NCBI RefSeq assembly: GCF_019977235.1
Contig: NZ_AP024646.1
Span: forward strand, 3,162,001 to 3,226,000
DNA from: Arthrobacter sp. StoSoilB5
Lineage (GTDB): Bacteria; Actinomycetota; Actinomycetes; Actinomycetales; Micrococcaceae
Length of the DNA: 64,000 bases
Direction: 5' to 3'
Shown here: one piece after another, positions 38,262-42,205 of the stretch
Position numbering within the stretch: the first letter of the stretch is position 1
How the letters are laid out: every line of letters starts with the position of its first letter
Program-made: the position numbers and the translations under genes
Notes under the pieces: model-generated
What the model was told of the DNA's origin: nothing
Databases searched by the model: none
Seen by the model: only the letters and a program-made list of their open reading frames with translations

Positions 38262-40025
<1,764 letters not shown>

Positions 40026-40030
40026 CTAAG

Positions 40031-40109
40031 TGAAAGCTTAGCCGGGCACAACGAAACTCCGCGGCGAGGATGGCCCAGCTTTTCAGATAGCTTTCAGGCC
40101 TCGCCGCGG
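40031..40109 (-). promoter_or_regulatory. leuA attenuator: two mutually exclusive hairpins
   Basis: In minus-strand order: L1 CCGCGGCGAGG (40109-40099), L2 TGAAAGCT (40096-40089), R1 CCTCGCCGCGG (40069-40059), R2 AGCTTTCA (40038-40031). L1 pairs perfectly with R1 (11 bp) and L2 with R2 (8 bp). The order L1-L2-R1-R2 means both cannot form as simple hairpins. L1 lies within the end of the leader-peptide coding sequence and L2 spans its stop codon, so ribosome position would decide between the pairings. Confidence 0.7.
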
Positions 40110-40138
40110 CAGCTAAGAAGAAGCATTCCCGCACGCAC
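40094..40138 (-). CDS. leuA leader peptide
   Basis: A 14-codon ORF reads VRAGMLLLSCRGEA and then TGA. Codons 6-8 are three consecutive CTT Leu. GTG 40138 lies exactly 6 bases after TACTGT, fitting a leaderless start; ATG 40126 would give a 10-residue version. The ORF ends 92 bases before leuA, right at the base of alternative hairpins. Leu-rich leader peptides upstream of leuA are known from other actinobacteria. Confidence 0.72.
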   Translation of the reverse strand: MRAGMLLLSCRGEA

Positions 40139-40144
40139 AAGTTC

Positions 40145-40150
40145 ACAGTA
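40145..40150 (-). promoter_or_regulatory. Putative -10 of the leuA leader transcript
   Basis: On the minus strand TACTGT is followed by GAACTT (6 bases) and GTG 40138, the leader-peptide start. A possible TTGCAA lies 20 bases upstream, longer than the usual spacing. Confidence 0.55.
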
Positions 40151-40252
40151 ACACGGTGCGTATGATGACATTGCAACACCTCATGCAACGTCCACTATGC
40201 AGACGCCGCGACGGTGGCAACGCCGGCTGCAGCGTCCATTCAAGGAGCAACA

Positions 40253-42205
40253 GTGCCACAGTCGGGGATCACTCTTTCCAACATAGATCACAGCGTCCGG
40301 CCGCAGGACGATCTCTACCAGCACGTCAACGGTGCATGGCTGAACAGCACGACGATCCCTGACGACCGCCCCCTGGAAGGCACATTCACCGCTTTGCGGG
40401 ACGAAGCAGAACTGGCCGTCAAGGCGATCATCGAGGAAGCGGCAAACAAGGGAGCCTCAGCCACCGGCGTCGAACAGAAGGTCGGCGGACTTTACGCCAG
40501 CTTCATGGACGAGGCCGCAGCGGAGGCGAAGGGGCTCGAGCCACTCCGGGGGCGTCTGGAAGAAGTCCGTTCAGTGGGTTCGGCCGAGGAATTCGCGGCG
40601 CTACTGGGCCGGCTGTTCCGGTGCGATGTGTCCGGCCTGTTCTCCATCTACCCGGCGCCGGACGCCGGAAACCCGGAGCGGATCCTGCTGTACATCGGGC
40701 AAGGCGGCCTGGGCCTCCCAGACGAGTCCTACTATCGCGATGAAAAGTTTGCCGCGATCGTGGTTGCCTACGGCGAATACATCGCCAAGTTGTTTAGCCT
40801 CGCCGGTGTTCCTGACGCAGAAGCCGCTGCTGGCCGCATTGTCGCCTTGGAAAAGGCCCTCGCATCCCACCACTGGGACAACGTCACCCTTCGTGACCCC
40901 CAAAAGACGTACAACCTCAAGACCGCGGAAGAAGCAGCGAAGCTGTTCCCCCTACTGGATACCTGGTTTGACGCCGGCCGTGTCGACGCCGGCAAGCGGA
41001 GCGAGATCGTGGTCAGCACACCGGACTTCTTTGCAGGCGCCGCTTCGCTGTTGGAATCGGAACCACTGGATGTCTGGAAGGAATGGCTGACCCTGAGGGT
41101 GCTCAGCTCCGCCGCGCCATACCTTTCCTCGGTGTTTGTGGACACGAACTTCGACTTCTACGGGACCACCCTCAGCGGCACCCCCCAGAACAAGGAGCGC
41201 TGGAAGCGCGGCGTTGCCGTCGTCGAAGCAGCACTCGGCGAGGCCGTGGGCCAAATTTACGTGGAGCGGCATTTTCCTGAAGGTCACAAGGCAAGGATGC
41301 AAACCCTCGTGGCCAATCTGATTGAGGCCTACCGGGACAGCATTTCTTCCCTTGAGTGGATGGGTGAGGATACAAAGGCCGAGGCCCTCAAGAAATTGGA
41401 TGCGTTCCGCCCCAAGATTGGTTTCCCTGAGAAATGGATCGACTACTCCGCCGTTGAGATCGACCCCAATGACCTTTTGGGCAACGTAGAACGGGCCCAT
41501 GACGCCGACGTCGACCGCCACCTGGACGAAATAGGCAAGCCCGTTGACTTGGACAAGTGGCTCATGACGCCACAGACCGTGAACGCGTACTATCACCCGA
41601 TGCTGAACGAAATCGTGTTCCCCGCCGCTATCCTCCAGCCACCCTTCTTCACGGCAGAGGCAGACGACGCCGTGAACTACGGTGGCATTGGTGCCGTGAT
41701 CGGCCATGAGATCGGCCATGGATTCGACGACCAGGGATCCCAATTCGACGGCAGCGGAGCACTCCGCAATTGGTGGACAGAAGAGGACAGGACGGCTTTT
41801 GAAGCCCGGACGGCAAAGTTGGTTGCCCAATACGATGCCCTATCGCCCTATGCGGCACCTGACCACAAGGTCAATGGGAAGCTGACGCTGGGTGAGAACA
41901 TCGGCGACCTCGGCGGGCTCACGATTGCGTACAAGGCCTACCTTCTCAGTCTCGACGGCGCCGAGCCTGAGGTCCTGGATGGTTTCACGGGCCAGCAGCG
42001 GTTCTTCATGTCATGGGCTGCCGGCTGGCGCCAGGTGATCCGGCCCGAGGAAGCGATCCGCAGGCTCGCCACCGATCCACACTCCCCCAACGAATTCCGC
42101 ACCAATGCCATTGCCCGCAACCTTGACGCCTTCCACGAAGCATTCCAGGTCAACGATCAAGACCGGATGTGGATGGAACCCGGGGACAGGGTCAGCATCT
42201 GGTAA
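40253..42205 (+). CDS. M13-family zinc metallopeptidase (neprilysin/PepO-like)
   Basis: A 650-residue peptidase. The zinc motif HEIGH is at 485-489, and the third ligand Glu548 is in GENIGDLGGL. The N-terminal family block is DDLYQHVNGAWL. No signal peptide is visible, as in many bacterial PepO/PepW enzymes that cleave oligopeptides. GTG 40253 is chosen because AAGGAG lies 5 bases before it; an earlier start at 40214 lacks this. It is divergent from leuA and ends before a hairpin terminator. Confidence 0.94.
   Translation: MPQSGITLSNIDHSVRPQDDLYQHVNGAWLNSTTIPDDRPLEGTFTALRDEAELAVKAIIEEAANKGASATGVEQKVGGLYASFMDEAAAEAKGLEPLRGRLEEVRSVGSAEEFAALLGRLFRCDVSGLFSIYPAPDAGNPERILLYIGQGGLGLPDESYYRDEKFAAIVVAYGEYIAKLFSLAGVPDAEAAAGRIVALEKALASHHWDNVTLRDPQKTYNLKTAEEAAKLFPLLDTWFDAGRVDAGKRSEIVVSTPDFFAGAASLLESEPLDVWKEWLTLRVLSSAAPYLSSVFVDTNFDFYGTTLSGTPQNKERWKRGVAVVEAALGEAVGQIYVERHFPEGHKARMQTLVANLIEAYRDSISSLEWMGEDTKAEALKKLDAFRPKIGFPEKWIDYSAVEIDPNDLLGNVERAHDADVDRHLDEIGKPVDLDKWLMTPQTVNAYYHPMLNEIVFPAAILQPPFFTAEADDAVNYGGIGAVIGHEIGHGFDDQGSQFDGSGALRNWWTEEDRTAFEARTAKLVAQYDALSPYAAPDHKVNGKLTLGENIGDLGGLTIAYKAYLLSLDGAEPEVLDGFTGQQRFFMSWAAGWRQVIRPEEAIRRLATDPHSPNEFRTNAIARNLDAFHEAFQVNDQDRMWMEPGDRVSIW

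Follow-up and report, generated by a model that had tools for sequence, protein, structure and literature searches.

The window (the whole 64,000-nucleotide stretch of Arthrobacter sp. StoSoilB5 DNA that was analysed) carries leuA on its minus strand, preceded by a short leucine-rich leader ORF, two interleaved helices and a Shine-Dalgarno (SD)-like sequence. The features, in the order in which they are transcribed, are:

40145..40150, minus strand: -10 hexamer TACTGT, followed by a 6-nt gap and then the leader GTG
40094..40138, minus strand: leader ORF (leuL-like) of 14 codons, VRAGMLLLSCRGEA plus TGA, with its start GTG at 40138
40115..40123, minus strand: Leu codon run CTT CTT CTT
40099..40109, minus strand: 5' arm of helix A, CCGCGGCGAGG, within the leader ORF and 5 nt past the last Leu codon
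40096-40094, minus strand: leader stop codon TGA
40089..40096, minus strand: 5' arm of the 8-bp helix of the original prediction, TGAAAGCT, lineage-specific
40073..40080, minus strand: 5' arm of pseudoknot helix P2, AGCTGGGC, in the loop of helix A
40059..40069, minus strand: 3' arm of helix A, CCTCGCCGCGG, a perfect 11 bp with the 5' arm
40040..40047, minus strand: 3' arm of P2, GCCCGGCT, 8 pairs, one of them G-U
40031..40038, minus strand: partner of the 8-bp helix, AGCTTTCA, perfect in the window
40011..40020, minus strand: SD-like sequence of leuA, AGAGAAAAGG
38262..40001, minus strand: leuA, 2-isopropylmalate synthase, 579 aa, with its start ATG at 40001 (TIGR00970 of NCBIfam, 838 bits against a cut-off of 697.4)

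The LeuA protein was 100% identical to LeuA of Arthrobacter sp. NtRootA1. On the plus strand, a divergent M13 family peptidase gene (PF05649, PF01431; 40214-42205) shares its intergenic region with the leuA promoter. Within the pseudoknot, 3 nt lie between the P2 5' arm and the helix A 3' arm, and 11 nt between the helix A 3' arm and the P2 3' arm.

The original prediction described a 14-codon ORF with three CTT codons whose GTG starts 6 bases after a TANNNT hexamer, and every letter of this description was correct (TACTGT, 40150-40145; GTG, 40138). The leader ORF is predicted to be leaderless, with the transcript starting at G 40138. The hexamer TACTGT has only the T, the A and the last T in common with TATAAT, and scanning 39900-40260 for the sigma-70 consensus gave no promoter-like site. 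A terminator scan of the same interval found no terminator-like site; the original prediction had noted no clear T-run after its second hairpin and had named termination and RBS access as candidate read-outs. Folded alone, the leader was not unusually stable (z -0.86), and stability was therefore not used as support. Rfam covariance models (T-box and others) gave no match at gathering score, and a comparison of the region with Rfam at E values up to 10 returned five chance-like matches, all far below their gathering scores.

The element in the window is a new example of the LEU element of Seliverstov et al. 2005 (PMC1262725), as described in the available portion of that paper, where the leader and the pseudoknot were already published. 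Shared with that description are the Leu-run leader ORF ahead of leuA, the pseudoknot, the actinobacterial host and the absence of other attenuator parts. Leu-run leader peptides at leuA are likewise described in the accessible text on Corynebacterium glutamicum (cg0303; PMC4046766) and C. diphtheriae (PMC5784534); the comparison covers the peptide, and in the latter case the authors could assign no start site.

Distribution of the element and the start of its leader

Upstream regions of leuA were collected into a set of 209; besides the window, it comprises 79 loci with upstream DNA from genome contigs and 129 loci from a class sample. The contig collection held 80 leuA loci, of which L041, with no upstream DNA, was excluded; L001 and L082 are the window itself and were left out. 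In the class sample, the leuA search matched 189 of 196 genomes, and the 129 loci used consisted of 29 delivered among the matches listed and 100 hand-picked for spread. The two collections may share some genomes.

A sequence profile built from 22 of the 209 regions detected the element at E < 1e-3 in 204 of them (misses: L043, L049, L052, L058 and L103). A separate parse, which looked for a Leu run and helix A, also succeeded in 204 of 209 regions (failures: L043, L052, L054, L058 and L099). The Leu-run leader ahead of leuA noted in the original prediction is supported. Because this parse requires at least two Leu codons and a spacing of 5 nt between the run and helix A, that distance is partly built in. 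L103 and L118 were parsed, but their sites are doubtful or wrong, and the tests on genus and family representatives exclude them; both still enter the leaderless-spacing counts and the first swap-test run.

A covariance model was used at wider taxonomic scales. In the window's own genome it gave one strong match, that of the window (8.3e-11), followed by weaker matches at E 0.117 to 0.371. Within the genus it matched 60 of 61 genomes at 0.01, the one miss being a genome that is 68% complete, and within the order 170 of 198 genomes at 1e-4. A draw from the phylum gave matches in 31 of 198 genomes at 0.01 and none in the other 167. Four weak matches in the genus (L259, L260, L262 and L263) were judged from their reading frames to be chance. 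Two genomes labelled as outside the window's class (G432 and G353) had strong LEU elements before leuA-like frames (L246 and L252), and the gene behind each is, from its reading frame, a putative leuA.

In 193 of the 204 parsed elements an ATG or GTG lies at most 27 nt upstream of the Leu run, and in 192 of these 193 a TANNNT hexamer ended 6-10 nt before this leader start (tested span, 4-10 nt). The gap was 6 nt in 105 cases, 7 in 37, 8 in 18, 9 in 19 and 10 in 13. When the position was shifted 40-130 nt upstream as a control (200 trials), the mean was 2.6 and the maximum 8 of 193. An SD-like motif preceded the leader start in just 4 of the 192. Among genus representatives, 59 of 62 had the TANNNT spacing, the exceptions being L129, L166 and L191. 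The -10 spacing and the missing SD support a leader start that is leaderless across the class, as the original prediction had proposed for the window; a 5' leader of a few bases is possible at gaps of 9 or 10.

A leaderless leuA leader has been on record since 2021, when leuL1 of Streptomyces lividans TK24, a 15-residue leader (MRFGLLLLSCRGEGL) ahead of leuA, was reported as such (PMC8079986, available text). The same peptide recurred letter for letter in at least two parsed elements (L183 and L201; every sixth row was inspected). Like leuL1, the window leader lies ahead of leuA without a typical Rho-independent terminator; unlike MRFGLLLLSCRGEGL, with its five leucines, VRAGMLLLSCRGEA has three, and it comes from a different genus. 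The leaderless start is published for leuL1, whereas in the window it is predicted from sequence.

Helix A, P2 and the 8-bp helix

Pairings were evaluated with a swap test, in which partners are exchanged between genomes and which asks whether a pairing has been kept by joint change, using one genome per genus or family (62 genus and 31 family representatives). At the genus level, 0 of 10,000 permutations equalled the real pairing of helix A (z -10.4) or of P2 (z -5.7); at the family level the counts were 0 for helix A and 28 of 10,000 for P2. In an alignment of 63 sequences, pairing was kept in 99.0% of helix A cells, and 7 of the 11 pairs of that helix had changed on both sides. P2 was paired in 77.8% of cells, with 5 of 7 pairs changed on both sides; the 77.8% is probably too low, because in some families MAFFT places the 3' arm of P2 wrongly. 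For the two helices combined, 12 of 18 pairs had changed on both sides. None of 500 shuffles reached any of the five measures, a count that, as the sequences are related, is not a probability, and sliding the partners of helix A or P2 by 1-3 columns lowered the scores.

By this comparative evidence, helix A, the 11-bp helix of the original prediction, is conserved and covarying across the class as well as perfect in the window, and the conserved helix interleaved with it is P2 (40080-40073 with 40047-40040). Given the order of their arms, helix A and P2 would therefore make up an H-type pseudoknot.

The original prediction had instead interleaved the 11-bp helix with the 8-bp helix and held that only one of the two can form. 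Arms interleaved as A-B-A'-B' have pseudoknot topology, so such helices can coexist and need not exclude each other. The 8-bp helix is perfect in the window, as claimed, and in 4 of 39 near relatives (L003, L004, L005 and L035); at the same site in the other near relatives the longest perfect helix was 7 bp in L034 and 2-6 bp elsewhere, and the 8-bp helix is broken in L002, a Paenarthrobacter. As a conserved part of the element it was rejected, its perfect form being absent from 35 of 39 near relatives, and the arm at 40089..40096 probably lies outside the conserved element. What had been observed in the window was in part confirmed, and its interpretation in part supported.

Leucine codons, the leuA Shine-Dalgarno region and control of leuA

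The LEU element published by Seliverstov et al. 2005 includes, in the available text, a base stem in which the Leu run pairs with the leuA SD (PMC1262725). For this pairing the swap test gave z -2.7, with 35 of 10,000 permutations in the 62 genera and 194 of 10,000 in the families. Two control pairings gave 1416 and 8215 of 10,000 at the genus level, and 4517 and 8628 at the family level. In the first run, which still included L103 and L118, the counts for the Leu run and the SD were 68 for the 63 genera and 492 for the 31 families, each out of 5000; restriction to the SD core gave 687 of 10,000. Predicted openness of the SD core was computed by nested folding, with no pseudoknot. Averaged over 63 sequences, it was 0.244 in the free leader and 0.320 when a stalled ribosome was placed on the last Leu codon; with the ribosome moved on to the stop it was 0.245 (differences across the 63, p 0.026 and 0.007). 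On stalling, openness rose by more than 0.05 in 27 of 63 sequences and fell in 18; it also changed, to 0.217 (p 0.044), when a control stretch was masked. For the window, nested folding gave a Leu run:SD pairing of 0.00 and an SD openness of 0.43 free, 0.40 stalled and 0.33 with a ribosome at the stop, that is, no opening on stalling. The swap tests thus suggest, with modest support, a base stem for the class, while the folding of the window leaves it unsupported in the window's genus; unlike in the published LEU element, as far as its available description goes (PMC1262725), the stem is weak in this genome.

Of 42 Micrococcaceae-side loci, 37 had GGCC in the 24 nt upstream of leuA (in the window, at 40020-40011), compared with 8 of 127 loci from other families. 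Pairing of this GGCC with the GGCC copies that lie within helix A and near it is a possible lineage-specific substitute for the base stem.

Leucine codon usage in the leaders differed from that of leuA itself. Across 76 loci, CTT made up 60.5% of Leu codons in leaders versus 4.4% in leuA, and CTG 14.2% versus 62.2%; the last leader Leu codon was CTT in 74 of the 76 loci, with 3.2 expected, and in 187 of the 204 parsed elements. Rare codons were scarce among the 681 leader Leu codons (CTA 12, TTG 4, TTA 0). With leuA codon usage pooled from the 76 loci (contig loci plus the window) and applied to the 62 genera, the real runs paired with the SD region at -8.97 and random synonymous runs of leuA usage at -8.79, and in 33 of the 62 genera the real run was the better one; runs made of rare Leu codons paired much worse (-4.37). 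Against the SD core alone, the values were -7.87 for real runs and -7.29 for leuA-usage runs (real better in 39 of 62), and all-CTC runs were as good (-7.98). The idea that codon choice follows from the strength of pairing with the SD region was not borne out, as leuA-usage runs pair nearly as well, and the preference for CTT is explained neither by pairing energy alone nor by rarity alone.

Comparison of sequences shows the layout of the element, its conservation, the leaderless spacing and both helices, A and P2; stalling, the direction of control and the read-out are inferences. Ribosome-mediated attenuation is plausible, and the LEU element is probably a leucine-responsive attenuator of this kind acting on leuA, its read-out most likely being access to the leuA ribosome-binding site. 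Transcription would start at the leader's own start codon, and a ribosome would load on the bare 5' end and translate VRAGMLLLSCRGEA, while the loop of helix A would pair with downstream sequence (P2) into the H-type pseudoknot. If Leu-tRNA were short, the ribosome would wait on the Leu run, against the intact pseudoknot. With the last Leu codon in the A site, the usual ribosome footprint would just touch helix A and cover the Leu run, and by that measure a stalled ribosome would leave the pseudoknot intact. If Leu-tRNA were plentiful, the ribosome would run through helix A, reach the stop, which lies immediately past the 5' arm of the helix, and leave, and the leader would refold. The Leu run, free of a ribosome, would then pair with the leuA SD region; a stalled ribosome would hide the Leu run, and the leuA ribosome-binding site would be freed. 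Because no terminator was seen, control of leuA translation is favoured, with moderate confidence, over early termination, and the leaderless start, the short distance from the Leu codons to the pseudoknot and the leuC and leuB copies described below together argue that translation of the leader matters.

Like classical transcription attenuators (trp, ilvB), the element has an amino-acid-rich leader peptide with RNA structures downstream; unlike them, it has no U-run terminator. According to its title, a 2020 study by Canestrari et al. reportedly found that mycobacterial polycysteine leaderless short ORFs act as attenuators. Those leaders, again going by the title, are leaderless and rich in the sensed amino acid, which is cysteine there and leucine here.

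Mutant data from Streptomyces coelicolor, as cited in the available text of PMC1262725, count against a ribosome-mediated attenuator: leader mutations are said there to have had some effect inconsistent with classical attenuation, and elsewhere in the same paper Leu-codon mutations are cited as without influence on regulation. The discussion of 2005, in the portion available, took up attenuation of the classical type, binding by a protein, and a stem formed at the ribosome-binding site (PMC1262725).

Stalling might instead decide whether RNA polymerase stops early in the leader, through Rho or another factor, which has to be invoked because no U-run terminator is present. Results from Mycobacterium tuberculosis speak for such transcription control, as far as the accessible text reports them: an RNA upstream of leuA, whose 13-codon ORF has 3 Leu codons, appeared on Northern blots as bands of 85, 65 and 45 nt, which its authors found to agree with an attenuator (PMC3526491), and the ilvB1 leader yields an abundant transcript of ~120 nt that ends inside the leader (PMC13236596). 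The Northern bands may, however, also be processing products. Furthermore, no terminator-like site was found in the window at 39900-40260, and among the 204 parsed elements a T-run of at least 4 lay within 12 nt of helix A in 9 and within 60 nt in 18, and one of at least 5 within 60 nt in 3, so that we consider control by early termination rather unlikely.

Seliverstov et al. preferred protein binding, with ML1624-like proteins carrying a helicase domain as candidates (PMC1262725, available text). The pseudoknot would then be the binding site of a regulatory protein and the leader peptide would be secondary, a view backed in the accessible part of that paper by a phylogenetic-pattern argument and by the cited S. 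coelicolor leader mutants, and consistent with the strong conservation of helix A. A pure protein site, however, has no need of a conserved Leu run, of a codon choice that places CTT last (187 of 204) or of a leaderless start, all of which are kept across the class and in 19 further copies of the element, and this makes it improbable. Least credible, to the point of being very improbable, are two mutually exclusive hairpins of 11 bp and 8 bp between which the ribosome chooses, as originally predicted, for although the window and 4 near relatives have the two in perfect form, the other 35 of 39 lack a perfect 8-bp helix and a different interleaved helix, P2, is conserved across the class.

LEU elements beyond the first leuA gene

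LEU elements were also found before other genes of the leucine pathway. Eight loci in eight genomes of one family, f4 (L274-L277 and L279-L282), had the element before leuC, which encodes the 3-isopropylmalate dehydratase large subunit, with a leaderless Leu leader, helix A and P2. A putative leuD-like sequence, recognised by reading, lay downstream at some of these f4 leuC loci. Two further genomes, from families f2 and f3 (L254 and L255), carried the element before leuB, with the leaders MRHALILRCRGGA and MARQLVILSSRGEFR, whose codons for branched-chain residues are mixed (LIL and LVIL). At both, a short ORF lies between the LEU-type element and leuB. Second leuA genes with a LEU element of their own were found at L256-L258, L278 and L284. 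L283 and L285, together with L246 and L252 from outside the class, complete the 19 further copies.

In all 19 further copies the leader start follows a TANNNT at 6-10 nt, and 5 nt separate a Leu codon from helix A, a distance that the parse again demands; in 16 of 19 the last Leu codon was CTT. When the swap test was applied to these copies by themselves, 0 of 10,000 permutations equalled the real pairing of helix A (z -6.2) or of P2 (z -4.0). In the scan of the order, all 13 genomes of family f4 among the matches listed had at least two model matches.

The LEU element at leuC and leuB has apparently been unreported until now. The available text of PMC1262725 has no mention of a leaderless start or of leuC and leuB copies, and a literature search for which most subscription papers were beyond reach found no LEU element at leuC or leuB, no class-wide leaderless test and no tested LEU-element mechanism.

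More tentatively, the LEU element could be a shared control part of the leucine regulon, covering leuA, second leuA genes, leuC (in one family) and leuB (in two families), each copy with a leaderless leucine-rich leader and with a pseudoknot that begins 5 nt past the last Leu codon, in which the sensor codons double as the anti-Shine-Dalgarno strand and attenuation is translational, without a terminator. We regard this as possible rather than probable. If it were true, a ribosome stalled for leucine would free the downstream ribosome-binding site directly, and the codon choice, with the last codon nearly always CTT, would be set by base pairing plus decoding. The leuC and leuB copies are natural variants with which the mechanism could be tested directly.

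A partial match to the model was seen at L261, around positions 200-260 (E 8.2e-4). The frame ahead of its helix, VLAVVVTRRSGV followed by a stop, has a run of GTA valine codons instead of leucine codons, and the 176-aa frame downstream had a sub-threshold LeuA_dimer match (23.2 bits against a cut-off of 24.9).
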